A DNA stretch of 31,134 nucleotides from a virus: positions 1 through 31,134 of IMG/VR virus record IMGVR_UViG_3300042879_001547. The stretch is one strand, 5' to 3'. The position numbers were made by a program, and so were the translations under genes. The notes under the pieces were generated by a model. That model had not been told where the DNA came from and did no database searches. It was given only the letters and a program-made list of their open reading frames with translations. Position 1 is the first letter of the stretch. Every line of letters begins with the position of its first letter. Positions 1,381 through 30,400 of this stretch are shown one piece after another.

Positions 1381-1522
1381 AGAACTCCAAAAATACTTGG
1401 ATGACCATAACATTACATTTGAAGAGTATATGAGAGCAAATATGATTACTGATGAAGAAAAGAAATATATTGATAAGATATGGATGGATGCGATTTATAG
1501 GAACTTTGGTGAGGACACTTGA
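1367..1522 (+). CDS. Very small helical protein (51 aa)
   Basis: An ATG inside the 3' end of the previous gene opens 51 codons ending at the TGA at 1520-1522, within the first regulatory cassette. The product begins MLTIEELQKYLDDHNITFEE, is acidic and looks wholly helical. Overlap style, composition and stop placement resemble neighbouring genes, which is the main support. Not recognised. Confidence 0.55.
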   Translation: MLTIEELQKYLDDHNITFEEYMRANMITDEEKKYIDKIWMDAIYRNFGEDT

Positions 1523-1570
1523 AGAACTGGCACAGGGGATGCTCTGGGTGCCTCTGGATGCCTTATAATA
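1513..1570 (+). promoter_or_regulatory. Punctuation cassette 1: dyad, weak hairpin, -10 box
   Basis: The dyad is CACTT (1516-1520), four bases, AACTG (1525-1529), continuing to CTGGCACA (1527-1534). After a 29-base gap comes TATAATA (1564-1570), followed by CTTTCATACACACAGA. GGCAC (1529-1533) can pair with GTGCC (1548-1552). No good -35 hexamer is visible. It separates the gene ending at 1522 from the one starting at 1593. Confidence 0.7.
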
Positions 1571-1592
1571 CTTTCATACACACAGAAACCTG

Positions 1593-1802
1593 ATGACTTA
1601 TTCAATCACAAAAGAATTTCGTATTCACCACGAAGAGGATGGTTGGTTCTACCAATTCACTGATGATGGTGATGGTTGTATTGAAATTGAGTATTATGAA
1701 ATGATTGATGGTGTGGAAACCCAAGAAGGAAGTTCTTTTAGTATTGAAAAAAAAGGTATTTCACAATTCATCAATGTTCTGGAGCAAATGAGAAATGACT
1801 GA
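1593..1802 (+). CDS. Small beta-rich protein, unknown (69 aa)
   Basis: First gene after cassette 1, about 23 bases past its -10 box. The alternating sequence around FRIHHEEDGWFYQFTDDG suggests a small beta sheet. Its stop lies within the ATGACTGA that starts the next gene. No recognised domain. Confidence 0.65.
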   Translation: MTYSITKEFRIHHEEDGWFYQFTDDGDGCIEIEYYEMIDGVETQEGSSFSIEKKGISQFINVLEQMRND

Positions 1803-2004
1803 AAGAGCAAAACAAATCTATGATGCTTGGGAAGAAGAGTATTGCCTACAAAAAGATTTCTGCGAACATCGTGCCCTTTCTGCTGCTATTCGTATAATTG
1901 CAGATGAATTATCATACACAATCTTTATGCCGAATAACGATGTAAGGGTAGTTGATACTCGGGTTCTTTATGAACTTGCTAATGAATTGGAAGACACTCT
2001 CTAA
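1795..2004 (+). CDS. Small helical protein, unknown (69 aa)
   Basis: Starts at ATGACTGA with an 8-base overlap. The TAA stop (2002-2004) lies inside the dyad of cassette 2, so the last codons double as regulatory sequence. The protein ends LYELANELEDTL, a motif echoed in the protein encoded at 2656-2853 (LELANELEELK), which suggests the two are distant relatives. Confidence 0.65.
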   Translation: MTERAKQIYDAWEEEYCLQKDFCEHRALSAAIRIIADELSYTIFMPNNDVRVVDTRVLYELANELEDTL

Positions 2005-2049
2005 ACTGGCACAAGGACACTCCAAAGTCCCACCAGATGCCTTATAATA
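1992..2049 (+). promoter_or_regulatory. Punctuation cassette 2
   Basis: CACTC (1995-1999), four bases, AACTG (2004-2008) continuing into CTGGCACA (2006-2013); gap of 29 bases; TATAATA (2043-2049). The following CTTTCATACACACAGA is the same as in cassette 1. GGAC (2014-2017) and GTCC (2027-2030) can form a short hairpin in the gap. The dyad overlaps the 3' end of the upstream gene. Confidence 0.7.
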
Positions 2050-2071
2050 CTTTCATACACACAGACACCTG

Positions 2072-2257
2072 ATGATTTCCAACGAACTTCTCAATCAACT
2101 TCAAGAACTTACTCAATCTGCTAATCTTTTACCTTCTGTTGAGAGTTCTATTCACAATCTAATGTTGAGTGTTTATCAAGAAGGATATAGTGATGGTTTT
2201 GATGATGGTAGATATGAAGAAAGTTATATCAATTCTATGAATTATCTTGGAGATTGA
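2072..2257 (+). CDS. Small protein with a GYSDGF motif (61 aa)
   Basis: First gene after cassette 2. It has a helical N-terminal half and then QEGYSDGFDDGRY. Variants of this Tyr/Gly/Asp motif recur in the proteins at 3249 and 4734, suggesting a small paralogous group. The stop shares bases with a TTGACTGA junction. Confidence 0.6.
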   Translation: MISNELLNQLQELTQSANLLPSVESSIHNLMLSVYQEGYSDGFDDGRYEESYINSMNYLGD

Positions 2258-2448
2258 CTGAAATGAGATACTACGAAAGTAGAACCTACGAACACCAGTG
2301 CGACTTTGATGCTAAAAACAGAGCACAAAAAGCATCACAAGATTACTACAACAAGTGGATAAATCTTCGTAAAGAAGTTCGTAATCTTGTAAGAGAACAA
2401 AACCTCACCATTACTCCTGAATTTTCTAAACTCATTGGACTGAAATGA
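2254..2448 (+). CDS. Small basic helical protein, probable TTG start (64 aa)
   Basis: The junction here reads TTGACTGA where neighbours have ATGACTGA, so I take TTG at 2254 as start, giving MTEMRYYES. The alternative is ATG at 2263, three codons later. The product is rich in Arg, Lys and Tyr (KWINLRKEVRNLVREQN). Function unknown. Confidence 0.55.
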   Translation: MTEMRYYESRTYEHQCDFDAKNRAQKASQDYYNKWINLRKEVRNLVREQNLTITPEFSKLIGLK

Positions 2449-2654
2449 CTAACCACATCATTCCCAAAGTCGCATACATTCCTCTGGAATACCATATGTC
2501 CGTTGAAGATTTCTTGGAAGTTTGGAAGGATATGGAAATGGAAGAGGAACCAACCCAAGAAGATTATGATACTGCTGTTCTTGATAGGGCACGATCGTAT
2601 TTTTATGATATGAGAGGATTATTTGAAAAGTACATTCGTTTGGAGGATGCCTGA
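2445..2654 (+). CDS. Small acidic protein, unknown (69 aa)
   Basis: Begins at an ATGACTAA junction. The sequence VEDFLEVWKDMEMEEE is strongly acidic and the rest is probably helical. A TGGAGG near its 3' end (2641-2646) is placed to act as ribosome binding site for the next gene. Confidence 0.6.
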   Translation: MTNHIIPKVAYIPLEYHMSVEDFLEVWKDMEMEEEPTQEDYDTAVLDRARSYFYDMRGLFEKYIRLEDA

Positions 2655-2655
2655 A

Positions 2656-2853
2656 ATGAAAATGACTAAAGAGGCACAAGCAGTCGCAGATGCTATTGAA
2701 GAAGTGAGATTTGACTGGGGTGATATGGAACAATCTCATCCTCATACTATTGCTGTTGCTACTCTTCGTAAAGTTGTAGAAGAACTCAAGTGGATTGGTA
2801 TTACTGAAAAGAACATTCTTGAACTTGCGAATGAACTGGAGGAACTGAAATGA
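2656..2853 (+). CDS. Small helical protein, unknown (65 aa)
   Basis: ATG 2656 is 9 bases after TGGAGG, a good Shine-Dalgarno distance, so I prefer it to ATG 2662, which carries the recurring ATGACTAA sequence. The body EAQAVADAIEEVRFDWGDME and the ending LELANELEELK are helical and acidic; the ending resembles the protein at 1795-2004. Confidence 0.6.
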   Translation: MKMTKEAQAVADAIEEVRFDWGDMEQSHPHTIAVATLRKVVEELKWIGITEKNILELANELEELK

Positions 2854-3074
2854 CTAACGAAGAAAAACTCACACTTCTCCTCAAGGTTCTCAAAGAATAC
2901 GCAGAGGTAAAACACTGCTATGATGTATATGGAGATGATTATACTCCAAGTGCTGGTAGTTATGATGATGCCTTTGAAGATGGTTGTGCTTATGGTGAGA
3001 TTACCTTTGCCCGCACTATGCTAGAATGTATTGGTGAAAAGTTTGAATACCCTTGTATGAAAGAAAATGACTGA
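2850..3074 (+). CDS. Small acidic protein, unknown (74 aa)
   Basis: ATGACTAA start overlapping the previous stop by 4 bases. The middle is Tyr/Asp-rich (YDVYGDDYTPSAGSYDDAF), followed by a helix with CAYGEITFARTMLE. Three cysteines are present, in no recognised metal-binding spacing. Confidence 0.6.
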   Translation: MTNEEKLTLLLKVLKEYAEVKHCYDVYGDDYTPSAGSYDDAFEDGCAYGEITFARTMLECIGEKFEYPCMKEND

Positions 3075-3252
3075 ACGAGTAAAATTCGCACAAGTATCCA
3101 GAGTAATCTGCCCCAAGACTGGTGTTCATTATCTTGATGCGATTAGTGCAGATGGAATTCATTACTCTGCTGAAATGTCTCCTAATATTGAAAAATGGTT
3201 AGTTTTTACCAAACCTTGGAGTGCCAACCGACAACAACCATTAGACCTATGA
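3067..3252 (+). CDS. Small unknown protein (61 aa)
   Basis: Starts at ATGACTGA. The sequence reads as short beta strands (VSRVICPKTGVHYLDAIS). Its stop is inside the next ATGACTAA junction. Not recognised. Confidence 0.6.
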   Translation: MTERVKFAQVSRVICPKTGVHYLDAISADGIHYSAEMSPNIEKWLVFTKPWSANRQQPLDL

Positions 3253-3476: not shown

Positions 3477-3511
3477 TATTGCTTATGTGTGTCGCAACCA
3501 TAGCAGAGATT

Positions 3512-3533
3512 GGGTGCTTTCGGGCACCTTTTC
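3512..3533 (+). terminator. Intrinsic terminator
   Basis: GGTGC (3513-3517) pairs with GCACC (3524-3528) around a six-base loop and is followed by TTTTCTT. It ends the string of early-type genes and lies directly before the late promoter. Confidence 0.7.
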
Positions 3534-3536
3534 TTG

Positions 3537-4295: not shown

Positions 4296-4353
4296 GGACA
4301 CTTTACAAACTGGAACACGGGCACTTGAAATCAGGTGCCCTTTGTTATATAAT
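4296..4353 (+). promoter_or_regulatory. Punctuation cassette 3
   Basis: GGACACTT (4296-4303), four bases, AACTG (4308-4312) in CTGGAACA; gap of 30 bases from 4317 to TATAAT (4348-4353). TTGAAA (4325-4330) lies 17 bases before the -10 and is a fair -35 element. A strong hairpin occupies the gap. Confidence 0.75.
4319..4345 (+). terminator. Intrinsic terminator inside cassette 3
   Basis: GGGCAC (4319-4324) pairs with GTGCCC (4335-4340) around a ten-base loop, then TTTGTT. Its T tract merges with the -10 box of the next promoter. Confidence 0.7.
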
Positions 4354-4359
4354 GTCCTT

Positions 4360-4737
4360 ATGAAACAATCAACTCAAATGAAAGACCTTGAACTGGGACA
4401 AATGCTATTCGGCAATCCCACAGAGGAATATAGTGTTCCTCGTGAGAAATGGATGGGTGGTCCATTCCAAATCTTGATTGATGCGATTACAGAAAAGACA
4501 GGAGAAAAAGATTATGGATACACTCCACATTTCTCCAACGACTTCTTTACTATTCGTCCTTATTATTGGGGGGATGAAGAAGATGAAATTGATAAACCTA
4601 ACTTTGAAATCCCAAGTGAAAACTTCCGTTTGACTTGGTATAAGTATCCTTTTAGGAGTTCTTATGCGAGTGAGAAACTTACTCCAAAGAGGTGGAACGA
4701 CATTATTCAAAAATGTATTAAGAGTTTGGAAGAATGA
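4360..4737 (+). CDS. Conserved-looking phage protein with LGQMLFGNP motif (125 aa)
   Basis: ATG 4360 lies seven bases past the -10 box, so the mRNA may begin at or next to the start codon (leaderless); no ribosome binding site is visible. The motif ELGQMLFGNP near the N terminus resembles short phage proteins I have seen in unrelated phages, but no function is known to me. The C-terminal half is Tyr/Trp-rich, ending in a helix (KRWNDIIQKCIKSLEE). Confidence 0.7.
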   Translation: MKQSTQMKDLELGQMLFGNPTEEYSVPREKWMGGPFQILIDAITEKTGEKDYGYTPHFSNDFFTIRPYYWGDEEDEIDKPNFEIPSENFRLTWYKYPFRSSYASEKLTPKRWNDIIQKCIKSLEE

Positions 4738-5089: not shown

Positions 5090-5805
5090 CTGAATTTCAA
5101 CCAACTCCACAAACACCAGAGCAAGTAGATGAAGGTCTGCGTAATGCTTTTAGACAAGCAATGAAAGATGGTGTGATGGATGCTACTCCTTACCTGAAAC
5201 AAATGACTTACAAATCCGATATTCAAAAAACTGAAAAAGAAATTGCCGTCTTACAAAAAAAACTTGAACTCCTCAAAGAGATTGAAACACATAAATCTCA
5301 ACCAAGAATGAACCTTCAATTTAATGTTAAGGGTGAGGTTGTCTCTTATAATGATGAGGTTTATTATCGTCTTGAATTTACTGATGGAAGTCATGGTTGG
5401 TATAAGAAAAAACATACTGTTGATGGTTTAGTAATGGTTGCTATTACTGATGGTGAAACTCGTCGTTTGCTTGAAGGATTATGGTTTAATGATGTGAAGA
5501 AGGGGAAGTATGATGAACCTTATCGTAATGTGAGAGCATATTGGGATGAGAAAGATAATCCTGCTTCATACATTACCGATGAGGTTGTGAATAGGTTAGT
5601 GAAAAAATATCAAGCACAAAAACTTTTTAATAGATTGGTAGATGAACTTGGTTATGATTTTGATGCTTGTAATGATGTTGTAGATTTGGTGGAGAGTTGG
5701 TTGCCTGAACCTCAATCAGCAGCAGGAAGTCAAAATGTAGATACTGAATTGCTTGTTGATGGGTTTAATCATTGCTTGCAAAAAATGAAGGAGATGCTAC
5801 GATGA
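5086..5805 (+). CDS. Unknown protein with coiled coil (239 aa)
   Basis: Starts at ATGACTGA. Residues about 44-71 form a likely coiled coil (KTEKEIAVLQKKLELLKEIE); a beta-rich middle (about 76-125) contains a Tyr-Arg-Leu-Glu-Phe strand and a GSHGWYKKKH turn; the rest is helical. The coiled coil suggests an oligomer. I cannot name a family. It is the largest product of this six-gene string. Confidence 0.7.
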   Translation: MTEFQPTPQTPEQVDEGLRNAFRQAMKDGVMDATPYLKQMTYKSDIQKTEKEIAVLQKKLELLKEIETHKSQPRMNLQFNVKGEVVSYNDEVYYRLEFTDGSHGWYKKKHTVDGLVMVAITDGETRRLLEGLWFNDVKKGKYDEPYRNVRAYWDEKDNPASYITDEVVNRLVKKYQAQKLFNRLVDELGYDFDACNDVVDLVESWLPEPQSAAGSQNVDTELLVDGFNHCLQKMKEMLR

Positions 5806-6242: not shown

Positions 6243-6636
6243 AGAATCACGAAAGAAAGCACTTGAATATGGAATAGAAGCAATTCACAAGTATTCTGAT
6301 GCGATGAAAGAACTTGCAGAGATTGAGAGGCAAGAGAGGGAAGAGATGGAAAATCCAACCTATCGTTTCTTTGCGATTGATTACTGTGCCACTGGTGAAG
6401 GTCGTTCTATTTGGTTACAAATCTGCCGTTATGATCTTGATGGAGAAAGAGATTATGAGTTCACAAAATTTGCAAACTTTGTTAATTATGATCATTATCT
6501 ACGCGGATGTGATGAACTTACAGAGCGAGAGTTTCTGGATAAGTATACGCGATTTATTCCTAACCTGATTGCCAATATGCTTCGGGATAAAACTATTGGT
6601 ACTTGGCAAACGCATTTGCACTTTAACTTATCATAG
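6235..6636 (+). CDS. Unknown protein, helical N terminus and beta-rich core (133 aa)
   Basis: Overlaps the upstream gene by 8 bases. Residues 1-40 form a charged helix; residues 43-75 look like strands (YRFFAIDYCATGEGRSIWLQ). The TAG stop shares its last base with cassette 4. Function unknown. Confidence 0.65.
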   Translation: MNEESRKKALEYGIEAIHKYSDAMKELAEIERQEREEMENPTYRFFAIDYCATGEGRSIWLQICRYDLDGERDYEFTKFANFVNYDHYLRGCDELTEREFLDKYTRFIPNLIANMLRDKTIGTWQTHLHFNLS

Positions 6637-6694
6637 GACACTTTCTAAACTGGCACAACGGCACTTCACAGGTGCCCTTTGATACACTATAATA
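6636..6694 (+). promoter_or_regulatory. Punctuation cassette 4
   Basis: GGACACTT (6636-6643), four bases, AACTG (6648-6652) in CTGGCACA (6650-6657); gap of 30 bases; TATAATA (6688-6694), followed by CTCTCATACACACAGAG. TTCACA (6665-6670) is a near-consensus -35 at a spacing of 17. It opens the longest string, which runs to 16901. Confidence 0.75.
6660..6680 (+). terminator. Terminator-like hairpin inside cassette 4
   Basis: GGCAC (6660-6664) pairs with GTGCC (6672-6676), followed by CTTT. The stem is short and the T tract weak, so termination may be partial. Confidence 0.5.
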
Positions 6695-6716
6695 CTCTCA
6701 TACACACAGAGGACTG

Positions 6717-11181: not shown

Positions 11182-11399
11182 TTAAAAAAATCATAGACTG
11201 GATTCTTGCACCATCAAAAAAACCCATTGTCGAAGATCACATTGATCTCTACACTAAACTTATGGAGTTAGAAAATCGTATAGAACTATTAGAGAGTGAA
11301 AATGTAGAGACAACTAATGAACTTTATCGTATGGAGAACTCTTTAGATGCTCGTATAGATATTCTTGCTGAACGTTGTAGGATTGATTACGATGTATGA
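11178..11399 (+). CDS. Small coiled-coil protein (73 aa)
   Basis: Overlaps the gene before by 4 bases and starts with MIKKIIDWIL, much like MIKAIRILLW there. Residues about 25-65 form a continuous coiled coil (KLMELENRIELLESENVE). Possibly a membrane-tethered oligomer; that is inference. Confidence 0.65.
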   Translation: MIKKIIDWILAPSKKPIVEDHIDLYTKLMELENRIELLESENVETTNELYRMENSLDARIDILAERCRIDYDV

Positions 11400-11580: not shown

Positions 11581-11737
11581 TAGTCTTAAAATTACACAAA
11601 ATGAGGATGGTTCCTTCACAATGGACTGGGACCCAGAGGACCCAAACTGGAAGTGGCTCAATGGGTTGACTTCCAAAGAAATTCAAGTTATTATGGAACA
11701 AGCAATTCAGAGCAAACTCGATGACCTCCGACTTTGA
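11570..11737 (+). CDS. Small acidic conserved cyanophage-type protein (55 aa)
   Basis: MTADSLKITQNEDGSFTMDW, DPEDPNWKWLNGLTSKEI and a helix make a short recognisable pattern of cyanophage genomes. It overlaps the gene before by 11 bases and the next by 17. Role unknown. Confidence 0.65.
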   Translation: MTADSLKITQNEDGSFTMDWDPEDPNWKWLNGLTSKEIQVIMEQAIQSKLDDLRL

Positions 11738-12503
11738 TTATAAAAAGTATTCACTCGAAAAACTGCAAGACTGGGTTCATGATGCCCTAAGCACGGGTGA
11801 AGCATCACCTCACGAAATCTACTCTGCGATTCGTGAAGCAGTTCGTGAAGATTACTACTACTATAAAGATCATACCAGTCGTGCTTCTGGACTTCTTGAA
11901 CTATTGAGTGGTCATCGTCCTGTTAAAGATGCAAAATGGGATGAGTGGGAACAAACACATTATCCAGAAGAAGTTAAAGATGATGGTATGCGTCCATGGG
12001 GTCATAGTGATCTAGAATATCAAGTTGCTAATAATAAAAAAGGTACATTTGTTGGATGGAATTATACCGCAACAGGTGAAAAAGTTTCTGAGCAACCATC
12101 AAAGAATGGTGTCTCCAATCTAGAATATACAAAAGCAAAGATTGAGGCAAATTCATCCTGGAATGATGGATTTACTCGTGAATACTATCAAAAGATTGTT
12201 GATAAGTATGAAGGTAAACAAGATAAAGTAAAGAAGTGGGTTCTTCCTGTTGAAGAAGTCAGAGATGAAGATACTGATAAAGATGAATATTGTGTAACAT
12301 TCCCTGAGGATCTTCTAGAAGCAGCAAATCTGAAAGAAGGTGATCAAGTCGAGTGGATAGATAAAGGTGATGGTTCTTATCTTCTCAAAAAAGTTGAGAA
12401 ATCAATGACTCATCAAGAAATGCTTGATGCTGGATATTGGATGACCGATGATGGTTTTTGGATGAAAAAATCCAAAGAAGAAATTGCACCAGATCAATGT
12501 TGA
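11721..12503 (+). CDS. AbrB-like domain protein with central insertion (260 aa)
   Basis: Residues 1-66 (starting MTSDFDYKKYSLEKLQDWV) and 193-229 (YCVTFPEDLLEAANLKEGDQ followed by a VEWIDKGDGSYLLKKV strand pair) match a protein I remember as conserved in T4-like cyanophages. The second part has the look of a SpoVT/AbrB swapped-hairpin DNA-binding domain. Between them, about residues 75-160 form a hydrophilic segment that contains SDLEYQVANNKKG and SNLEYTKAKIEAN, two related pieces, and seems longer than in relatives I recall. About 30 residues follow the AbrB-like part. Likely a DNA-binding regulator; the target is unknown. Confidence 0.65.
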   Translation: MTSDFDYKKYSLEKLQDWVHDALSTGEASPHEIYSAIREAVREDYYYYKDHTSRASGLLELLSGHRPVKDAKWDEWEQTHYPEEVKDDGMRPWGHSDLEYQVANNKKGTFVGWNYTATGEKVSEQPSKNGVSNLEYTKAKIEANSSWNDGFTREYYQKIVDKYEGKQDKVKKWVLPVEEVRDEDTDKDEYCVTFPEDLLEAANLKEGDQVEWIDKGDGSYLLKKVEKSMTHQEMLDAGYWMTDDGFWMKKSKEEIAPDQC

Positions 12504-13285: not shown

Positions 13286-14461
13286 ATGGTTTCTCCAGCG
13301 TATGTTGTTGGTTATGGAATGATCGATGCTTTAGGTAATAATCCAGGTGATTGTTTCCTGAATATGGTGAATAATAATGATTATTCTGTTGAGTTAGACT
13401 TTATGGGTGATCATAAGATTCATCGTGGTATTCCTGTCGATGATTCTTTGCTGCAACTTCCTGAGGAGTTTACTCCTAAGATTCTTGCTAACATGACCCG
13501 AGCACAGCAATTTGCACTTCATGCGACCGATCAGGCATTAAAGATGTCTGGTCTTCCTTTGTCTTCAAATGTTGCTGTGATTGTATCATCGGTTTCGAAC
13601 GATGTGGAGTTTTTGGATGGTAACTTTCAGAAACTAAAGGATAATAAGAGAGTTAATCCATTTAAGGTTGTCAATCGTATTCCTGATATTATTTCAGGAC
13701 AGATTTGTAGTCATTATGGTTTTATGGGAGCATCTTTTGCACTCTATGCTTCTTGTGCAACGGGAATGTACTCGCTTGATTATGCGATGCGAATCCTTGA
13801 TGAATATGATTATGTCATCGTTGGTGGTGCAGATGCTGGTGTATTTGAGATTGCAATGAAATACTTTGCTGCCATTGGTGCTCTTGGAAATACCAATGCA
13901 CCTTTCGATGACAGCAGAGAAGGGTTTGTAATGGGTGAGGGTGCTGGTGTTTTGATTCTGCAGAGTGAAGAGAAGGTCCAAGAATTTAATAGCACTAAAC
14001 ACGCTAAACTGTATCCTGTTGGTGCTGGATCTGATGCTTTTGATCTCACTGCCCCTGCTGATGATGGGCGAGGAGCAAAGATTGCACTTGACAAAGCACT
14101 CAAGGGAATTGATCGTATTGATGCTGTAAATGCACACGCTACATCAACTCCTGTTGGTGATCCTGTAGAGTATCAAGTTATCACGGATAGATACCCTAAT
14201 ACTCCAATCTATGCACCAAAGAGTAAGATTGGACATACTCTTGCTGCTGCGAGTATTCTTGAGGCAATCTATGCAATCGTATCAATGAAGAATAAATTGA
14301 TTCCTCATTGCCAAAATATGGTAGAATGTTCTTATGATGTACATAAAGTTCTTGTAAAAGAACCAACTGCAATGACTGGTGATGTATTGAGAACTCTCAA
14401 CAATTCATTTGGATTTGGTGGTAAATGTGCTTGTCAAGTTATTGAGGTGAGTCATGACTGA
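13286..14461 (+). CDS. Beta-ketoacyl-ACP synthase II-like enzyme (391 aa)
   Basis: A full-length condensing enzyme of the KAS I/II (FabB/FabF) thiolase fold, slightly shorter than the usual 400-415 residues. The catalytic set is intact: Cys157 in ASCATGMYS, His284 in NAHATSTPVGDPVE, Lys314 and His317 in KSKIGHTLAA, plus the C-terminal NNSFGFGG loop (372-379). The family joins an acyl chain on the Cys with malonyl-ACP. No ACP, ketoreductase or acyltransferase gene is in the window, so it would have to use host partners or modify a single step. AAGGAG precedes the ATG by 5 bases. It overlaps the first oxygenase gene by 8 bases in an ATGACTGA junction, so the three genes are probably made together. 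Confidence 0.88.
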   Translation: MVSPAYVVGYGMIDALGNNPGDCFLNMVNNNDYSVELDFMGDHKIHRGIPVDDSLLQLPEEFTPKILANMTRAQQFALHATDQALKMSGLPLSSNVAVIVSSVSNDVEFLDGNFQKLKDNKRVNPFKVVNRIPDIISGQICSHYGFMGASFALYASCATGMYSLDYAMRILDEYDYVIVGGADAGVFEIAMKYFAAIGALGNTNAPFDDSREGFVMGEGAGVLILQSEEKVQEFNSTKHAKLYPVGAGSDAFDLTAPADDGRGAKIALDKALKGIDRIDAVNAHATSTPVGDPVEYQVITDRYPNTPIYAPKSKIGHTLAAASILEAIYAIVSMKNKLIPHCQNMVECSYDVHKVLVKEPTAMTGDVLRTLNNSFGFGGKCACQVIEVSHD

Positions 14462-16051: not shown

Positions 16052-16696
16052 ATGTTAAAAGACCTTGTAAATGAATGTTTTGATTTAAAAAAGTCATCTT
16101 TACCTGAATGGTTAGATGAAACGATCGAAAACGATGTTGCTATTATCAATAGTTATGCTTGGACTGCCGACCAATGCCGTCGTATTCGTATTTGTGATCT
16201 TGACATTAAGGGGAAGTTTACCGCCGAGACCCTAGTCATCTATCCCGAATATTGTTATGAAACTCCGATATTTGGTACGGAATATATTCGAATTGGAACC
16301 AAGAAGTATTTTGGTGCGACTGATTTTCACCCTGTTCGTGGCGATACAGAGTACGAACAACAGTACGTTTTAAACTATCTTGGCGAGTTTCCTGATAGAG
16401 ACCAGGAAAATTCTAAATTTTATGATCTGACTAAGTATTTCTCCAAGAAGTTCTGGACTTCCAAGAGAGATTGTGATTTTTATGAAGAATATATAGAGAT
16501 AACAAGAAAATACTTGGAACAATATAAATTATGTCTTGCGGAAACTGAACAAGGATCTGTTGACAAACAGTTCCATCAAGACTATGATGTTCACATGGCA
16601 GCGAAAGATCCAGCACACGGGATCTTAAAAGCCTATTACTCTGAACAATTTGCAACTGATTATATACACACCTTTCTTTTCGATCTCAATGGATAA
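16052..16696 (+). CDS. Ferredoxin-dependent bilin reductase (214 aa)
   Basis: Family features in order: CRRIRICDLD (42-51), the LVIYPEYCYETPIFGTEYI core (61-79), GATDFHPV with Asp91, YDLTKYFSKKFW (124-135), and KDPAHGILKAYY with Asp186, ending TFLFDLNG. Asp91 and Asp186 align with the two proton-donating aspartates of phage PebS (Asp105 and Asp206). The family reduces biliverdin to phycobilins with ferredoxin electrons. Cyanophages carry several subtypes (PebS, PebA, PcyA, PcyX-like); I cannot decide which this is, and the DPAHG form looks closer to PebB/PcyX-like proteins. The gene is directly coupled to cp12 by 8 bases. Confidence 0.85.
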   Translation: MLKDLVNECFDLKKSSLPEWLDETIENDVAIINSYAWTADQCRRIRICDLDIKGKFTAETLVIYPEYCYETPIFGTEYIRIGTKKYFGATDFHPVRGDTEYEQQYVLNYLGEFPDRDQENSKFYDLTKYFSKKFWTSKRDCDFYEEYIEITRKYLEQYKLCLAETEQGSVDKQFHQDYDVHMAAKDPAHGILKAYYSEQFATDYIHTFLFDLNG

Positions 16697-16901
16697 CATC
16701 GACCAACATATTCAGAAAGATATTGGTATTCTGAATGACCCACAAATATCACCTCAAGCACGTAGACATACTGAGGAAGAACTTGAGGCACTAGAAACAT
16801 ACAAAGTAAATCATCCTGAAGACACTCACGATCCTACACCATTAGAACTTTACTGTGATACTCATCCTGATGCACCAGAGTGTAGAATTTACGAGGATTG
16901 A
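16689..16901 (+). CDS. cp12: CP12 Calvin-cycle regulator (70 aa)
   Basis: The C terminus TPLELYCDTHPDAPECRIYED is the CP12 signature: a cysteine pair (CDTHPDAPEC) and the acidic RIYED end that binds GAPDH. The N-terminal Cys pair of host CP12 is absent, as I recall for cyanophage forms, and is replaced by a helix (DNIDQHIQKDIGILNDPQ). Phage CP12 is thought to block GAPDH and phosphoribulokinase, shifting carbon to the pentose phosphate pathway for nucleotide synthesis. ATG 16689 overlaps the bilin reductase gene by 8 bases. It is the last gene before cassette 5. Confidence 0.88.
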   Translation: MDNIDQHIQKDIGILNDPQISPQARRHTEEELEALETYKVNHPEDTHDPTPLELYCDTHPDAPECRIYED

Positions 16902-16960
16902 GGACAGTTCACAAACTGGCACAAGGGGGGTTCTCGGGGCGCTGGGGACCCCTTATAATA
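16902..16960 (+). promoter_or_regulatory. Punctuation cassette 5
   Basis: GGACAGTT (16902-16909), four bases, AACTG (16914-16918) in CTGGCACA (16916-16923); here the dyad core CAGTT/AACTG is perfect. Gap of 30 bases, TATAATA (16954-16960). The gap holds a strong hairpin. The -35 region is poor. Confidence 0.75.
16927..16952 (+). terminator. Hairpin inside cassette 5
   Basis: GGGGTTC (16927-16933) can pair as RNA with GGACCCC (16946-16952), including one G-U pair, followed only by TT before the -10 box. The sequence differs from other cassettes while the pairing is kept. Confidence 0.55.
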
Positions 16961-16984
16961 TATGGGTAATCAACAAACGCCCCA

Positions 16985-17992: not shown

Positions 17993-18400
17993 ATGAAACA
18001 ACAAAACGGTTTTATTGATCCTGCTGTTGCTGCAATCGTTGTTGGTGTAGTTGTGGTTGGTGGTCTCATCTTTATCGGTGGTCCCCAGTATAATGTGTGG
18101 CAACAATCTCTTGCTGGTAAGGCAGAACTGCAAAAGGCAGAATACACTCGTCAGGTAGCAGTGCTGGAAGCACAAGCAAAGAAAGATAGTGCTCAACAAC
18201 TTGCTGATGCCGAAATCATCCGTGCTACTGGTGTTGCTAAAGCAAACCAAATCATCGGTGATAGTCTGAAAGACAATCGTGAGTATCTTCAGTATCTGTA
18301 TATCACTGGGCTGGAGGAAGGTTCCAACAAAGGTAATGTGACGATCTATGTGCCTACCGAAGGTGGTATGCCTGTGCCCACGCTTCAGATGAACAAGTGA
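17993..18400 (+). CDS. Membrane-anchored helical protein, SPFH-like tail (135 aa)
   Basis: A membrane helix at residues about 10-30 (AAIVVGVVVVGGLIFIGG) is followed by a long Ala/Gln/Lys-rich helix (42-95) containing ADAEIIRATGVAKANQII, and an extended end. Such helices resemble those after band-7/SPFH domains of prohibitin-like proteins, but the band-7 core is absent. GAGGTAAATT before ATG 17993 is a fair ribosome binding site. Last gene before cassette 6. Confidence 0.65.
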   Translation: MKQQNGFIDPAVAAIVVGVVVVGGLIFIGGPQYNVWQQSLAGKAELQKAEYTRQVAVLEAQAKKDSAQQLADAEIIRATGVAKANQIIGDSLKDNREYLQYLYITGLEEGSNKGNVTIYVPTEGGMPVPTLQMNK

Positions 18401-18454
18401 CACTTTAACAACTGGTACACGACCCGCCCACAAGGCGGGTTTTCTGCTATAATA
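18399..18454 (+). promoter_or_regulatory. Punctuation cassette 6
   Basis: GACACTT (18399-18405), four bases, AACTG (18410-18414) in CTGGTACA (18412-18419); gap of 28 bases; TATAATA (18448-18454), then ACAAGGTAGTTGAGGA. The left arm overlaps the stop codon of the upstream gene. Confidence 0.75.
18422..18443 (+). terminator. Intrinsic terminator inside cassette 6
   Basis: ACCCGCC (18422-18428) pairs perfectly with GGCGGGT (18434-18440), then TTT. The strongest terminator of the window, placed directly before the -10 box. Confidence 0.8.
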
Positions 18455-18476
18455 ACAAGGTAGTTGAGGACTTCTT

Positions 18477-18602
18477 ATGGATCTATCTGAACTGATTGAG
18501 GAATTTCGGGAAATTGCATTGTATGATTCCGATCCCCAAGATTGGATGGGTATTCTTGAATCTGATGACTACTGGGTGCCAGATCAAGAACTGGCATACT
18601 GA
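18477..18602 (+). CDS. Very small acidic protein (41 aa)
   Basis: The only gene between cassettes 6 and 7. GAGGA lies 8 bases before the ATG. The product is acidic (MDLSELIEEFREIALYDSDP) and its last codons (V-P-D-Q-E-L-A-Y) are spelled by the dyad of cassette 7. It may be a genuine micro-protein or a short leader whose translation affects the next cassette. Confidence 0.55.
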   Translation: MDLSELIEEFREIALYDSDPQDWMGILESDDYWVPDQELAY

Positions 18603-18635
18603 CCTCTCAGGGTGCCCTCTGGGTGCCCTATAATA
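18576..18635 (+). promoter_or_regulatory. Punctuation cassette 7
   Basis: GTGCCAGAT (18576-18584), four bases, AACTGGCAT (18589-18597): a seven-base-arm inverted repeat lying in coding sequence. Gap of 30 bases after 18598, TATAATA (18629-18635), followed by TTCTCATACACAAGGGA. Two GGGTGCC direct repeats sit in the gap. Confidence 0.75.
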
Positions 18636-18661
18636 TTCTCATACACAAGGGAACAACCCCG

Positions 18662-19674: not shown

Positions 19675-19795
19675 CAAACTGATCTTCATTTCTTCGTTCA
19701 TTTGGTTTTTGCACTGGGGTCAATGTCTTACATCACTCTTTCTGGATACGGTTATTCTAAACGCCTCTGTGAGGACGTTACCACTTGGTTTCTGA
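19661..19795 (+). CDS. Doubtful small hydrophobic ORF (44 aa)
   Basis: It starts with ATGACT, as many genes here do, overlaps the membrane micro-protein by 14 bases and runs 73 bases into the metalloprotease gene in another frame. The hydrophobic stretch LIFISSFIWFLHWG could span a membrane. It may equally be chance. Its value would be to couple translation of the downstream gene. Confidence 0.3.
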   Translation: MTTTDKLIFISSFIWFLHWGQCLTSLFLDTVILNASVRTLPLGF

Positions 19796-20199
19796 ATCGA
19801 TTCCTTCCACGACACAAGATTGAGGTGGAGATTCTTCATCGTGGTCTGAAACGTGAAGGAGTTTATGGTTACTGTGATTATGTGGGTGAGTCTTATCGTC
19901 CCCGTGAGTTTCTGATTGAGATTGGCACCTATTTTGATGAGGAGTTGTATATAAAAACTCTTTTGCATGAACTGGTTCATCTGCGCCAGTGGGTAGTCGG
20001 TTCGCTGCGGTCCAAGCGTGGAAAAATGTACTATGGTAAAGAACCCGTTGAAAATTACGACTATTGGCATCAACCACACGAAATTGAGGCACGAGAGCAA
20101 GAAGAAACCCTATATCTTGAGTATTTGATTGAGAAAAACCGTGTGCCAGTTCAGAAAGTGGTACAGTTCTTTCCAAACCGCCTGATGCAGGCAGTATAA
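19723..20199 (+). CDS. HExxH metalloprotease-like protein (158 aa)
   Basis: The zinc motif HELVH (His82, Glu83, His86) lies in LLHELVHLRQW, and WHQPHEIEAREQE (116-128) offers Glu120 or Glu122 as third ligand, the arrangement of SprT-like and related minigluzincin-type peptidases. Length suits a single catalytic domain. No signal peptide, so it would act in the cytoplasm; substrate unknown. I start at ATG 19723 rather than a TTG seven codons earlier. Its 3' end contains the dyad and hairpin of cassette 8, and its TAA stop lies inside the -10 box. Confidence 0.7.
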   Translation: MSYITLSGYGYSKRLCEDVTTWFLNRFLPRHKIEVEILHRGLKREGVYGYCDYVGESYRPREFLIEIGTYFDEELYIKTLLHELVHLRQWVVGSLRSKRGKMYYGKEPVENYDYWHQPHEIEAREQEETLYLEYLIEKNRVPVQKVVQFFPNRLMQAV

Positions 20200-20201
20200 T
20201 A
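20143..20201 (+). promoter_or_regulatory. Punctuation cassette 8, within a coding 3' end
   Basis: GTGCCAGTT (20143-20151), four bases, AAGTGGTACA (20156-20165); gap of 29 bases; TATAATA (20195-20201). The whole cassette lies in the last 57 bases of the protease gene plus two bases. Confidence 0.7.
20180..20192 (+). terminator. Hairpin inside cassette 8
   Basis: GCCTG (20180-20184) pairs perfectly with CAGGC (20188-20192) around a three-base loop. There is no T tract, so termination is uncertain. Confidence 0.4.
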
Positions 20202-20221
20202 AACACAGTCACAAACACATC

Positions 20222-22679: not shown

Positions 22680-22737
22680 GTGCCAGTCTGAGAACTGTCC
22701 ACTCTGCCCTCAGTCTGCCCTATTCTGCTCTATAATT
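22680..22737 (+). promoter_or_regulatory. Punctuation cassette 9
   Basis: GTGCCAGTC (22680-22688), four bases, AACTGTCCA (22693-22701); gap of 28 bases; TATAATT (22731-22737), followed by ACAAGGTAATCAAGGGA. That initial transcribed sequence is shared with cassettes 6 and 10. Confidence 0.7.
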
Positions 22738-22760
22738 ACAAGGTAATCAAGGGAACCGCA

Positions 22761-24079: not shown

Positions 24080-24279
24080 ATGAAATCGAAGTAAAACTAA
24101 ATGTTCATGAAGTTGGTGTAATTCTATCTGCACTTCAATTACTTGGACTTAGAGAAGAAAACCAAATTGCAAGAGAATATGGAAGTGTGCCAGCACTGTA
24201 TAACAAACTCTATACGCTCTTCGAGCAGATGGACACTTCGGAAACTGGCCTACGGAACGACGTGGTGCCGTCCTTCTGA
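24076..24279 (+). CDS. Small helical protein (67 aa)
   Basis: ATGAATGA start overlapping the upstream stop. IEVKLNVHEVGVILSALQLL and a second helix look like a small helical bundle. The last 16 codons (DTSETGLRNDVVPSF region) are the dyad and gap of cassette 10, and the TGA lies two bases before the -10 box. Confidence 0.6.
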   Translation: MNEIEVKLNVHEVGVILSALQLLGLREENQIAREYGSVPALYNKLYTLFEQMDTSETGLRNDVVPSF

Positions 24280-24288
24280 CCTATAATA
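24231..24288 (+). promoter_or_regulatory. Punctuation cassette 10, mostly in coding sequence
   Basis: GGACACTT (24231-24238), four bases, AACTG (24243-24247) in CTGGCCTA; gap of 29 bases; TATAATA (24282-24288), then CAAAGGTAATCGAGGGA. ACGG and CCGT in the gap can pair weakly. Confidence 0.7.
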
Positions 24289-24313
24289 CAAAGGTAATCG
24301 AGGGAGACACCCC

Positions 24314-28089: not shown

Positions 28090-28826
28090 CGGACGTAAAA
28101 CCACCAATAACCTTTCCAACTATAACGACCAGGATTCTTCAGACTTTTGAGAATCCCCTGTTTGTCAGTACACTCAAAGCCCCGAACAGCAGCATTCACA
28201 CTCTCATATCGAACCTCAATTTGTTCAGTCTTTTTATTGACACCAAACACCGCTTTCTTCTTTTCTTTTTCTTCTAGTATTTGCCAACGATGACCATAGG
28301 CAATACGGTAATGTCTGGCAGCAGATAGAATGTTTGCACGGTTATTCGGATTACCTGTCACTTGAGTTGCTGCTTCTCTTGCACTTGTGTATTCAGTGCA
28401 TACACCAGTCTCTAAGTTCTTTCCTTTGATTTTAAGACCTGTCTTCTTACCATCTCCCCGTGTATTCTCATTCCATTGGATTAGATTGGGAGATGTTTTA
28501 CGTGGTTGTTTCTTTATAGGTTTAATCTCCTCCCGCTTTTCCTGCATTGGAATCACAGCTTTTACTACATTATACTCAGGATTATATTGTTCGATCCAAT
28601 AGTTTGTTTTCTCAGTAAATTCAGATTCATCACATTCATCTATCTCTTTAATCATAAAGTTATGCACACCGTGTTCTCTGAATGCCTTATGTAATGGTTC
28701 AGAGGACATTCTCTTCGATCTCTCTATGTGGTGTACCCATTCTTTATTCATCGCAAGTGTGGTGTTTCCCACGTACTTGTGCCCATTTTGCTTGTTGAGA
28801 ATGAGGTAAATGATGCCTCTTGCCAT
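28086..28826 (-). CDS. GIY-YIG family protein, apparently catalytically dead (246 aa)
   Basis: The N-terminal domain has GIIYLIL (4-10) and KYVG (17-20), the two strands of GIY-YIG nucleases, plus PLHKAFREHG and NYWIEQYNPEYNV. Aligned with I-TevI, the catalytic Arg27 position is Glu29 (NKEWVHH) and the catalytic Glu75 position is Thr74 (TNYWI), so cutting is doubtful. Two NUMOD1/IENR1-type DNA-binding segments follow (about 145-200 and 208-244: TEYTSAREAATQV and YESVNAAVRGFECTD). The only minus-strand gene in the window. It could act as a DNA-binding repressor or be a decaying homing endonuclease. Confidence 0.75.
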   Translation of the reverse strand: MARGIIYLILNKQNGHKYVGNTTLAMNKEWVHHIERSKRMSSEPLHKAFREHGVHNFMIKEIDECDESEFTEKTNYWIEQYNPEYNVVKAVIPMQEKREEIKPIKKQPRKTSPNLIQWNENTRGDGKKTGLKIKGKNLETGVCTEYTSAREAATQVTGNPNNRANILSAARHYRIAYGHRWQILEEKEKKKAVFGVNKKTEQIEVRYESVNAAVRGFECTDKQGILKSLKNPGRYSWKGYWWFYVR

Positions 28827-28832
28827 ATCTAT

Positions 28833-28889
28833 AACACAGTGTGCTTTTGGTTTTTATAACACTGTATGTATAATTAATAACACGGTATG
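28833..28889 (-). repeat. Three short repeats upstream of the minus-strand gene
   Basis: AACACAGTGTG (28833-28843), AACACTGTATG (28858-28868) and AACACGGTATG (28879-28889) lie 7-63 bases before the start codon of the minus-strand gene. The first contains the palindrome CACAGTGTG-like core. They may be operator sites for that gene. Confidence 0.45.
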
Positions 28890-28959
28890 ATAGATTTGAT
28901 GATAGGTTAGGAATATTGTATGGTATAGTTAATGTTAGATTAAATATATGTTAGTGTTT

Positions 28960-28966
28960 TATAATA
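28960..28966 (+). promoter_or_regulatory. Possible -10 box with no clear gene
   Basis: TATAATA followed by TTCTCAATAATTATG resembles the start of cassette 7 transcripts, but no dyad precedes it and no gene above 14 codons follows before the repeat cluster. If active it would make a short RNA reading into the repeats. Confidence 0.3.
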
Positions 28967-28994
28967 TTCTCAATAATTATGTTTAATTGAGAAT
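28966..28994. repeat. Inverted repeat, first copy of a bracketing dyad
   Basis: ATTCTCAAT (28966-28974) and ATTGAGAAT (28986-28994) are perfect arms around 11 bases. The same arm sequence recurs at 31036-31062. The rest of the gene-free stretch 28827-29314 holds AT-rich DNA to about 29060, a short GC-rich patch near 29080, and then the CTCGACGAG repeats. Confidence 0.6.
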
Positions 28995-29120
28995 CATTTA
29001 GGTTAATTGATGAGAATGCTGGTTCTTGTAGCAACCTTTACCTGTATAGCATAAGACGCGGAGTTTGTCAAGCCCCACCCCCCGCGCCAGGTTCCCAGAC
29101 CCACACAAGACTCATAAGAT

Positions 29121-29407
29121 CTCGACGAGACGCCCGAGTCTTATAATTCTCGACGAGATACACATCAGATATCATTATATCAGCATTCCTTAACAAATCT
29201 CGACGAGAATACATATATACTCATATCTCGACGAGAACGGGTGAGCATAAGGGCTTGCAATCTCGTCGAGATATGTGCTACAATCATACAATCAATCATC
29301 AATCTCGACGAGCTATGTACGACGACTACGATCTCGACTATACATACGCAACAGATTACTCATACGATCTCGACGAGTATTATGCACAAGATGCAGAGCT
29401 CGACGAG
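29121..29407. repeat. CTCGACGAG repeat cluster 1
   Basis: Full copies start at 29121, 29149, 29199, 29227, 29304, 29369 and 29399, with one reversed copy (CTCGTCGAG, 29262) and one partial (29333). Most read TCTCGACGAGA, a dyad with five-base arms around a single A. Distances are 28-50 bases. The last three lie within the gene at 29315. Candidate protein-binding iterons. Confidence 0.8.
29255..29284 (+). promoter_or_regulatory. Promoter with a repeat in its spacer
   Basis: TTGCAA (29255-29260), 18 bases, TACAAT (29279-29284): a good sigma-70-type promoter. The reversed repeat CTCGTCGAG (29262-29270) fills the first half of the spacer and another copy (29304) sits just before the gene, positions expected of operators. 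Confidence 0.6.
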
Positions 29408-29464
29408 GATTATGCACGAGATGGGCAAGATTACGAAACGCTTGCATATCGTCATTACGCATGA
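29315..29464 (+). CDS. Tyr/Asp-rich acidic small protein built on DNA repeats (49 aa)
   Basis: MYDDYDLDYTYATDYSYDLD begins a product with about twelve Asp, four Glu and eleven Tyr among 49 residues and few basic residues. The repeat CTCGACGAG is read in frame as Leu-Asp-Glu (YDLDE, AELDE). I start at ATG 29315, downstream of the predicted promoter; an in-frame ATG at 29273 lies upstream of the likely transcript start. High acidity fits a DNA-mimic type protein, but coding status is uncertain because the repeat itself generates this composition. Confidence 0.45.
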   Translation: MYDDYDLDYTYATDYSYDLDEYYAQDAELDEDYARDGQDYETLAYRHYA

Positions 29465-29470
29465 TATAAT
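29465..29470 (+). promoter_or_regulatory. Probable -10 box TATAAT
   Basis: TATAAT starts one base after the stop of the acidic protein gene and lies 24 bases before ATG 29494. No dyad cassette precedes it and no clear -35 is seen. Confidence 0.45.
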
Positions 29471-29493
29471 CTAATAAAACGCACGAGAAACAC

Positions 29494-29652
29494 ATGACTC
29501 TCACACACGCTAAGCGTACTCTACGTGTCACGTTAGATCTTATGTGTTATGATGATCTGGACGTGGATGCAATTGATTGGCGCGAATTGCTGAAACTGGA
29601 ACCCAACGAGGATATCCACGTTACCATCAAGGAATACGATCCGTTCGAATGA
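29494..29652 (+). CDS. Small unknown protein (52 aa)
   Basis: MTLTHAKRTLRVTLDLMCYD, then DLDVDAIDWRELLKLEPNED and HVTIKEYDPFE: a strand, a helix and a strand. I recall related short proteins (LRVTLDLE...DWRELL) from cyanobacterial phages. The stop lies three bases before cassette 11. Confidence 0.65.
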   Translation: MTLTHAKRTLRVTLDLMCYDDLDVDAIDWRELLKLEPNEDIHVTIKEYDPFE

Positions 29653-29653
29653 T

Positions 29654-29711
29654 GTGCCAGTTTGAGATCTGGCACAAGACCCCTTGATCTCTGCCACGTG
29701 GTGGATTAATA
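29654..29711 (+). promoter_or_regulatory. Punctuation cassette 11
   Basis: GTGCCAGTT (29654-29662), four bases, ATCTGGCACA (29667-29676): seven-base perfect outer arms. After a gap of about 28 bases comes ATTAATA (29705-29711); TTGATC (29684-29689) may be a -35. CCAC and GTGG (in 29693-29703) can form a small hairpin in the gap. Confidence 0.65.
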
Positions 29712-29735
29712 TTCTCACAGTTCGAAATTAAACCA

Positions 29736-29882
29736 ATGTGTGGTCCTGCCTTCGATTATACCTTCGAAGATTTCCTGAATGATGCTTCCCCCGAAGAATG
29801 GGCGGAATGGGAAAACAAAGCGGCAGAACTTGAGTTGCCTGTGGACTACTATGTCCAGGAGTTCGTTGCTTGTGCCAGTTGA
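29736..29882 (+). CDS. Small acidic protein (48 aa)
   Basis: MCGPAFDYTFEDFLNDASPE, EEWAEWENKAAELE and LPVDYYVQEFVACAS. The final Cys-Ala-Ser-stop is spelled by the left arm of cassette 12. The layout resembles the protein at 24693. Function unknown. Confidence 0.6.
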   Translation: MCGPAFDYTFEDFLNDASPEEWAEWENKAAELELPVDYYVQEFVACAS

Positions 29883-29931
29883 GGAAGTGGCACAATGAGG
29901 GTTTACAGGGTCCCTGAGTCCTGGTAAATTA
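29872..29931 (+). promoter_or_regulatory. Punctuation cassette 12
   Basis: GTGCCAGTT (29872-29880), four bases, AAGTGGCACA (29885-29894); gap of 30 bases; TAAATTA (29925-29931), with TTTACA (29902-29907) as a -35 at a spacing of 17. It is followed by CATTCGTCGCTGAGA, nearly repeated in cassette 13. Confidence 0.65.
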
Positions 29932-29952
29932 CATTCGTCGCTGAGAAATCCG

Positions 29953-30162
29953 ATGATTTTCGCCATCTCCAAACTCAACAATTGCACCTACACTCTGGAT
30001 GCAAACAATCAGCGGGTTCTGATGTATGCTCCGCTGCTGCCTGATGGTTCATACGAAACTGCAGGATCTGCCTATGATTGGGTAGAATGGGATCGCCTGG
30101 ATGGTGATATCCTCGAAGAAGCAGATCGCATTCACAAACTCCTGCTGGCGGAGGTGAAGTGA
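29953..30162 (+). CDS. Small conserved cyanophage-type protein (69 aa)
   Basis: CTYTLDANNQRVLMYAPLLP, then WVEWDRLDGDILEEADRIHK. Mixed strands and a terminal helix. I recall it as an unannotated cyanophage protein. The Leu-Ala-Glu codons near its end include GGAGG, the ribosome binding site for the next gene. Confidence 0.65.
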   Translation: MIFAISKLNNCTYTLDANNQRVLMYAPLLPDGSYETAGSAYDWVEWDRLDGDILEEADRIHKLLLAEVK

Positions 30163-30353
30163 TGGAATTCGTTAACTACGTGAAGTCTTTCTATGGTCCT
30201 GGTGGAATTTATGATATGGGTGCCACCAATGAGATGATCATCGATGCCACATTTAAATATATCACCAGTGGTGCTCATTTTTGTGGTGATAGTTTTGATC
30301 GTGAACACGTGCGGGATATTATGATCGATGAGTTCGGGCTTGTGCCAATCTGA
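30162..30353 (+). CDS. Small conserved cyanophage-type protein (63 aa)
   Basis: ATG 30162 begins on the last base of the upstream TGA, 7 bases after GGAGG. FVNYVKSFYGPGGIYDMG, then FCGDSFDREHVRDIMID: the FYGPGGIY and GDS-DRE-VRDI pattern is one I associate with cyanobacterial phages. Its last codons form the left arm of cassette 13. Function unknown. Confidence 0.7.
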   Translation: MEFVNYVKSFYGPGGIYDMGATNEMIIDATFKYITSGAHFCGDSFDREHVRDIMIDEFGLVPI

Positions 30354-30400
30354 GAACTGGCACACACCCCCTTGCGGTCCTGACCAATCCGTTCTACATT
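30342..30400 (+). promoter_or_regulatory. Punctuation cassette 13
   Basis: GTGCCAATC (30342-30350), four bases, AACTGGCACA (30355-30364); gap of 29 bases; TACATTA (30394-30400), with TTGCGG (30372-30377) as a possible -35. It serves the ArdA-like gene. Confidence 0.65.

Follow-up and report, generated by a model that had tools for sequence, protein, structure and literature searches.

A dyad module phased to a −10 box, probably a promoter class shared by T4-like Synechococcus and Prochlorococcus phages

The middle promoters of phage T4 carry a MotA box near −30, which is not a dyad, and the late promoters served by P2 Ogr and P4 Delta combine a dyad near −55 with a poor −35 region and a phage activator working on the host sigma-70 polymerase. 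For the early genes of the cyanophage Syn9, a novel regulatory element conserved among T4-like cyanophages was reportedly described by Doron et al. in 2016. Here we analyzed a module, a dyad followed at a fixed distance by a −10-like box, that occurs 13 times in IMG/VR virus record IMGVR_UViG_3300042879_001547, which was taken whole (31,134 bases; hereafter the window). According to the covered sections of a 2010 review, cyanomyoviruses contain no homologues of alt, modA, modB, motA and asi, and the mechanism of their early and middle transcription is unclear; sigma-70-like motifs precede early-gene homologues in S-PM2 and Syn9 and were not found in S-RSM4, and a putative middle promoter is given for P-SSM4 and Syn9, not for P-SSM2, S-PM2 and S-RSM4 (PMC2984593). 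The promoter-early stem-loop (PeSL) of T4-like phages is described as a composite of a terminator and an early promoter (PMC4503421, in the part covered, citing Arbiol 2010 and Comeau 2014).

We read the modules as promoters of one class, common to T4-like phages infecting Synechococcus and Prochlorococcus, in which a dyad centred near −53.5 would be bound by an activator, and give this reading a probability of about 0.8. The window is dense with small open reading frames (ORFs), mostly on the + strand, and among named phages it is closest to T4-like phages of Synechococcus, S-SRM01 foremost and S-PM2 second. All 13 dyads listed in an earlier, sequence-only reading of this DNA were present, each within one base of the position given there, and in all of them a −10-like box began 28, 29 or 30 bases past the right arm, AACTGGCACA. 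Every module lies directly 5' of a start codon, with an ATG between +16 and +22 relative to the predicted start (13/13).

Module 1, 1513..1576, + strand: dyad 1513-1532, box TATAAT at 1564, predicted +1 at 1576, ATG at +18.
Module 2, 1992..2055, + strand: dyad at 1992, box TATAAT, predicted +1 at 2055, ATG at +18.
Module 3, 4296..4360, + strand: dyad at 4296, strong terminator-like hairpin at 4319-4340, box TATAAT, predicted +1 at 4360, ATG at +1 and +19.
Module 4, 6636..6700, + strand: dyad at 6636, spacer hairpin, box TATAAT, predicted +1 at 6700, ATG at +18.
Module 5, 16902..16966, + strand: dyad at 16902, strong spacer hairpin, box TATAAT, predicted +1 at 16966, ATG at +20.
Module 6, 18398..18460, + strand: dyad at 18398, hairpin CCCGCC/GGCGGG followed by TTTT, box TATAAT, predicted +1 at 18460, ATG at +18.
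Module 7, 18577..18641, + strand: dyad at 18577, box TATAAT, predicted +1 at 18641, ATG at +22.
Module 8, 20144..20207, + strand: dyad at 20144, within the 3' end of ORF 19702-20199, box TATAAT, predicted +1 at 20207, ATG at +16.
Module 9, 22681..22743, + strand: dyad at 22681 with the variant right arm AACTGTCCAC, box TATAAT, predicted +1 at 22743, ATG at +19.
Module 10, 24231..24294, + strand: dyad at 24231, box TATAAT, predicted +1 at 24294, ATG at +21.
Module 11, 29655..29717, + strand: dyad at 29655, weak box ATTAAT, predicted +1 at 29717, ATG at +20.
Module 12, 29873..29937, + strand: dyad at 29873, weak box TAAATT, predicted +1 at 29937, ATG at +17.
Module 13, 30343..30407, + strand: dyad at 30343, weak box TACATT, predicted +1 at 30407, ATG at +19.

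Conservation of the individual parts was less strict than first described. The core CASTT-N4-AASTG was exact in 8 of the 13 copies (0.26 expected per shuffled strand); the other five deviate in the left arm (CACTC at 1992, CAGAT at 18576, CAGTC at 22680 and CAATC at 30342, positions as in the sequence-only reading) or in the right arm (ATCTG at 29654). The claimed continuation GGCACA held, as TGGCACA, in seven copies only, and the box was exactly TATAAT in ten, with the last three copies departing from it. The expectation that the spaced pair should exceed shuffled sequence was borne out: a matrix derived from 109 sites in viral contigs other than the window returned, at a score of at least 16 (a threshold of our choosing), 13 sites that are exactly the 13 named dyads, against none in the reversed window and none in any of ten dinucleotide shuffles. 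At thresholds below 16 matches appear in controls too, and at scores above 9 there were 18 unmerged window matches on both strands versus 2 in the reversed control. The simpler pattern AA[CG]TGG-N30-42-TATAAT occurred nine times on the + strand and not once on the − strand, with 0.11 expected.

Analysis of the distance between arm and box revealed the same phasing well outside the window. A search of viral contigs with the pattern AACTGGCACA-N20-40-TATAAT gave at least 120 stretches, to which an S-SRM01 locus was added (121 loci); among the matches listed, the gap was 28, 29 or 30 bases in 14, 71 and 32 cases, or 117 of 146 pairs, and no other gap had more than 4. Nearly all in-phase contigs (91/92) encode proteins like those of nine panel phages, versus 18/28 of the contigs with out-of-phase pairs only, again among the matches listed. 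A symmetric dyad matrix, free of the fixed right arm, was applied to ten sequences (the window and nine phages), and around its 320 dyads exact TATAAT was found at gaps of 28 (n=12), 29 (n=33), 30 (n=18) and 31 (n=6), with 0-2 at each other gap from 15 to 45. The spacing is kept whatever sequence fills the spacer.

Seven bases past the box, the 109 viral sites, which have exact TATAAT and the right arm, showed a purine (105/109) followed by T (90/109), and the 103 modules from the symmetric scan carried the same signature (purine in 91/103, T in 74/103). This purine-T pair fits +1 and +2 of a transcription start, which would put the middle of the dyad near −53.5 (−52.5 to −54.5). Information content at −36 to −28 was at most 0.26 bit in the 109 sites, so that no −35 consensus is visible, and TTG[AC][AC] occurred in 11 of the 109 spacers. 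A TTGACA/TATAAT scan accepted 3 of the 13 window modules (4325, 6665 and 29902), with six weaker matches unlisted and modules 1 and 2 judged as failing by eye; a canonical sigma-70 −35 element at 16-18 from the −10 box is thus not a property of the set. In module 3 the predicted start coincides with an ATG, in the manner of a leaderless transcript; the gene start is probably 4378, because the in-frame ATG at +19 has the spacing of the other modules.

The relationship between modules and genes was consistent with such starts. Counted without annotation, 131 of the 188 sites from 13 sequences had an ATG between +14 and +24 relative to the predicted start, and the ATG count of this 11-base stretch was 133 versus 17-53 in five other 11-base stretches. 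The expected place was occupied in 13/13 sites of the window, 8/11 of Syn9, 16/20 of P-SSM2, 24/32 of S-SRM01 and 7/7 of DSL-LC03. In annotated genomes, the next coding sequence (CDS) began 60-130 bases past 20 of 24 + strand dyads of S-SRM01 (44.3-89.4 kb; random positions, 19%) and 70-95 bases past 10 of 16 dyads of P-SSM2 (random positions, 6%), both ranges having been chosen after inspection of the data. Many dyads overlie the stop codon of the preceding gene. At four Syn9 sites (44788, 48572, 127506 and 148756) the annotated CDS starts upstream of the predicted RNA start and an ATG stands at +16 to +19; either the gene starts are annotated too early or the start prediction is off there.

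The dyad itself has a 20-bp consensus, TGNCA[C/G]TT-N4-AA[C/G]TGNCA, whose variable C/G step permits a test of pairing between the arms. In the 103 modules the facing bases were C/C in 34, G/G in 16, G/C in 24 and C/G in 8, that is, complementary in 32 and C/C or G/G in 50, with about 41 complementary pairs expected from the product of the column counts if the sides were independent. Since the arms lack the covariation expected of an RNA stem, we read the dyad as double-stranded DNA, and the earlier suggestion that it forms RNA structure is not supported. The half-sites lie 12 bp apart, about one helical turn, which would suit a dimeric protein. Bidirectional promoters from a single dyad were considered and rejected, a box matching at least 5/6 being found on the other side in 15 of 175 cases versus 4-7 at shifted offsets, several of them products of wrong-strand scoring.

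A matrix scan of the window and of related cyanophages, the check proposed in the sequence-only reading, gave sites above the shuffles in all 13 sequences (188 in total). The counts at scores of at least 16, with the reversed control and the mean of ten shuffles per sequence, were as follows.

S-SRM01: 32 sites, reversed 3, shuffles 0.8.
S-PM2: 22 sites, reversed 0, shuffles 0.6.
Syn9: 11 sites, reversed 1, shuffles 0.2.
P-SSM4: 11 sites, reversed 0, shuffles 0.7.
P-SSM2: 20 sites, reversed 2, shuffles 0.8.
S-CRM01: 26 sites, reversed 0, shuffles 0.3.
S-RSM4: 14 sites, reversed 0, shuffles 0.8.
P-SSM7: 15 sites, reversed 0, shuffles 0.5.
DSL-LC03: 7 sites, reversed 0, shuffles 0.3.
S-SZBM1: 6 sites, reversed 1, shuffles 0.7.
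S-CREM1: 4 sites, reversed 1, shuffles 0.4.
P-HM2, first 50 kb only: 7 sites, reversed 0, shuffles 0.2.
Window: 13 sites, reversed 0, shuffles 0.

The dyad module is therefore present in all five phages named above from the review, P-SSM4, Syn9, P-SSM2, S-PM2 and S-RSM4. No module site was found at this threshold in the genome of T4 (reversed 0, shuffles 0) or of Ma-LMM01 (reversed 1, shuffles 0.6). With a simple pattern, to which the search was restricted in these cases, S-SKS1 gave seven matches, two of them with ACTGGCA and module-like spacing, and P-SSP7 and Syn5, to which the matrix was not applied, gave none. Sites were clustered, the densest 30 kb holding 18/20 sites in P-SSM2, 17/32 in S-SRM01, 17/26 in S-CRM01, 11/15 in P-SSM7, 12/22 in S-PM2 and 5/11 in Syn9. 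The annotation of S-SRM01, P-SSM2 and Syn9 shows the densest stretch to be a run of small, mostly unnamed genes, and small-gene regions of this kind hold takeover genes. The five clustered sites of Syn9 fall within the small-gene run gp60-gp93; further sites stand at the starts of the peptidase gene gp150, cobS and gp203, with ATG at +18, +20 and +17.

Hairpins in the spacer were frequent in the class and unevenly distributed in the window. A perfect stem of at least 5 occurred in 46 of the 109 viral spacers (about 10 expected from shuffles) and of at least 6 in 29 (about 2 expected), and 25 combined a stem of at least 5 with a T-rich tail. On folding, 4 of the 13 window spacers were clearly more stable than shuffles (z ≤ −2.3; 4296, 6636, 16902 and 18399). 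The description of a hairpin in the gap thus applies to many viral sites and, in its strong form, to only four window copies, and of the proposed combined end-and-restart signal the restart, a promoter, is supported, the end only partly. As the spacer is constrained only in length, many copies may also carry an intrinsic terminator there, and the hairpin reads as an optional passenger. In S-PM2 the module at 11349 has a spacer hairpin identical to a printed stem-loop, 11369-11391, which is listed as a potential stem-loop in the PeSL discussion of Puxty et al. 2015 (PMC4503421, in the part covered); a second stem-loop printed there, 16829-16854, is not a module. The spacer of module 9 has phased TCTGCCC-like repeats after the right arm AACTGTCCAC or a close variant, and similar spacers were seen at Syn9 44788 and S-SZBM1 98858.

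Taken with the fixed phasing, the start signature, the ATG position and the missing −35 element, the earlier proposal of a promoter whose dyad near −50 is bound by an activator is probably correct. In the mechanism that we propose, a dimeric activator would bind the dyad as double-stranded DNA, centred about 53.5 bp before the start, and recruit a host sigma-70-type polymerase to the −10 box TATAATA and the initiator (A/G)-T-A, replacing the −35 element. Each module would start a run of small genes, presumably expressed early and probably serving host takeover; with the dyad often over the previous stop codon, transcription would begin about 18 bases before the next ATG, and in many copies a spacer with an intrinsic terminator would end upstream transcription.

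Several observations weigh against this interpretation. The statistics of the 109 sites and the matrix rest on sites picked for exact TATAAT and the right arm; phages closely related to the panel may be among the training contigs, and three training sites (loci L054, L121 and L123) represent a different type that lacks the left arm and has a TTGACA-like −35. In the loose symmetric scan, 129 dyads were found in reversed genomes, and 130 of the 320 dyads lacked a hexamer resembling the box at 28-30. The boxes of three window copies are poor. The ATG was in the expected place in only 2/6 sites of S-SZBM1 and 1/4 of S-CREM1, and the presence of the module in these two phages is doubtful (few sites; reversed controls 1 and 1). 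Some sites must be chance matches, as the three sites in the reversed S-SRM01 control indicate, and Syn9 157284, inside nrdA and with no ATG nearby, is probably one. A host-like early promoter is reported at 5322-5350 in S-PM2 (PMC4503421, in the part covered); no module was found at this position, so not every early promoter belongs to this class. Among the conserved unknown proteins examined, no recognisable DNA-binding regulator was seen apart from a MazE/AbrB-like domain.

The other promoter type caught by the right-arm pattern consists of AACTGGCACAA or a variant, then CCAGTTG, usually a TTGACA-like −35, and then TATAAT. It was observed at L054, L121 and L123, at S-SRM01 157818 and at S-SKS1 81451, and the usual left arm was absent where seen.

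The search for the binding protein gave no convincing activator candidate among the window ORFs with relatives in at least four phages, nor among 48 ORFs of Syn9 having relatives in six module-rich phages; ten of these ORFs were scanned against Pfam and nine against PHROGs. Window ORF 11721-12503 (260 aa) is no convincing candidate either: its MazE/AbrB-like match near the C-terminus is weak (PF04014, E 3.5e-05, narrowly missing the curated threshold) and its relatives are patchy (S-SRM01 and DSL-LC03; weaker in P-SSM2, S-SZBM1 and S-RSM4).

The same promoter layout could arise if the dyad were bound by a host regulator of picocyanobacteria borrowed by the phage, which we consider unlikely, if a serious alternative. 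Such a regulator would be the simplest supplier if the promoters become active as soon as the DNA is injected. T4-like cyanophages, which lack MotA, AsiA, Alt and Mod homologues, are also thought to use unmodified host polymerase for their early genes (PMC2984593, in the sections covered). The strict dyad TGNCASTTN4AASTGNCA was found in 62 of 386 cyanobacterial genomes versus 23 for the reversed control (counted by eye); this excess is due to larger genomes, and one dyad, which was intergenic in those inspected, is common to several of them. In genomes of at most 3.0 Mb, a rough proxy for picocyanobacteria, the strict dyad was no commoner than the control (7 versus 7). Spacer-matched matches in bacterial and archaeal contigs were scattered over unrelated bacteria, an archaeon and one cyanobacterium (among the matches listed, 80 of at least 117). 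A host regulon was therefore rejected for the small genomes, and because none is visible there, a phage-encoded or virion-carried protein is the favoured candidate for binding; a host factor with looser sites may be the binder instead. In three larger cyanobacteria (L363, L364 and L367), the intergenic dyad TGACACTTTCTTAACTGACA, or one very similar to it, lay a few hundred bases from genes that by eye are pentapeptide-repeat-like.

A more specific form of the activator reading, which we advance tentatively and at somewhat less than even odds, is that the takeover genes are run by a single dedicated activator that belongs to no described family and is either synthesised immediately or delivered with the virion. 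Reading the dyad at −53.5 on host polymerase, it would stand in for MotA/AsiA/Alt, and with the spacer doubling as a terminator each module of about 65 bp would end one gene string and start the next.

It is improbable that the module persists chiefly because, like a PeSL, it provides a short stretch of homology for gene shuffling, with transcription secondary: the modules do lie between small genes, but their spacers differ between copies and the constrained features are those of a promoter. PeSLs have been proposed as mediators of shuffling in T4-like phages, a role judged unlikely in S-PM2, where they seemed too sparse (PMC4503421, in the part covered, citing Arbiol 2010 and Comeau 2014 for the proposal). 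Slightly more improbable is an operator through which a repressor or silencer shuts the promoters off; a symmetric operator at a fixed place would be compatible with repression, but the dyad lies far upstream (−53.5), the −10 region is left free and the −35 element is missing, an arrangement that would rather fit a need for activation. That the dyad is an RNA hairpin in the 3'-terminal part of the preceding transcript (a processing site, a stabiliser or part of a terminator) is scarcely credible, for although many dyads lie at upstream stop codons and some perfect copies could fold, complementary facing bases are fewer than chance predicts (32 of 103 versus about 41) and phasing to the −10 box is the conserved feature.

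Other features of the window were recorded alongside. A second repeat family, TCTCGACGAGA, has seven exact window copies and 27 matches with at most two mismatches on both strands (6 expected), and it clusters around the last three modules (29120-29408 and 30910-31100). In S-SRM01 the family recurs near 91 kb (L264, 907, 964 and 996), adjoining the module-rich region, and it is present in other fetched loci as well; the module spacer of L074 contains a hairpin, AATCTCGACGAGATT, related to it. Positions 13286-14461 encode a beta-ketoacyl synthase (Pfam PF00109, E 3e-27; PF02801, E 2e-20), and 16052-16696, slightly upstream of module 5, a ferredoxin-dependent bilin reductase (PF05996, E 5e-29). 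ORF 19702-20199, whose 3' end lies under module 8, carries an HELVH motif read by eye; the 3' end of P-SSM2 58095-58592 (PSSM2_074, annotated PF06114) is likewise overlapped by a module. Rfam returned no family in the window at gathering scores.

If the reading as a promoter class is right, transcription starts can be predicted for many small genes without names (the 188 predicted sites in 13 sequences), and the dyad could serve as a short DNA bait for fishing out the missing activator. With T4's early and middle switching proteins being absent according to the sections of the review covered here, the dyad promoters would also offer a handle on how cyanophages switch on takeover genes.

The class has probably been reported in part already. 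Its dyad is likely the early element of Syn9 reportedly described by Doron et al. 2016, which comes from the same phage group and is said to control early genes. A description of the dyad was not found in the covered parts of the literature searched, Doron 2016, Arbiol 2010 and Comeau 2014 excepted (PMC5312081, PMC5780444, PMC4503421, PMC2984593, PMC3037559, PMC2297514, PMC9004378, PMC5490813, PMC6414667, PMC10452541, PMC6359870 and PMC5082946). The sequence-only reading knew of no named phage promoter class with this layout, a statement that needs qualifying: P2 Ogr promoters are similarly laid out, and Doron et al. 2016 reportedly described a novel early element. PeSLs, too, are named in T4-like phages, and one S-PM2 spacer hairpin is printed in that context (PMC4503421, in the part covered).

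NtcA-activated promoters have a motif centred near −41.5. Column counts of the 103 modules showed no GTA-N8-TAC, the NtcA motif given in the covered part of PMC3037559, and the dyad centre lies near −53.5. Unlike the T4-type late promoter, the window boxes are TATAAT in 10/13 and TATAAATA in none, and a dyad stands at a fixed distance. As in the T4 middle promoters that depend on MotA/AsiA, a phage promoter would here combine a host −10 box with a substitute for the −35 element, but no conserved column that could be a MotA box exists at −36 to −28. The P2 Ogr promoter, which was compared in layout alone, is similar in having a dyad at this distance (module centres −52.5 to −54.5) and no −35 consensus; the dyad sequence differs, and the Ogr and Delta promoters serve late genes of temperate phages. 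With the PeSL the module may share a composite of terminator and early promoter, and the S-PM2 stem-loop 11369-11391 is common to both, whereas in the module, most copies of which lack a strong hairpin, the hairpin need not be present and is placed between the −10 box and a dyad of activator type, which the covered part of PMC4503421 does not mention.

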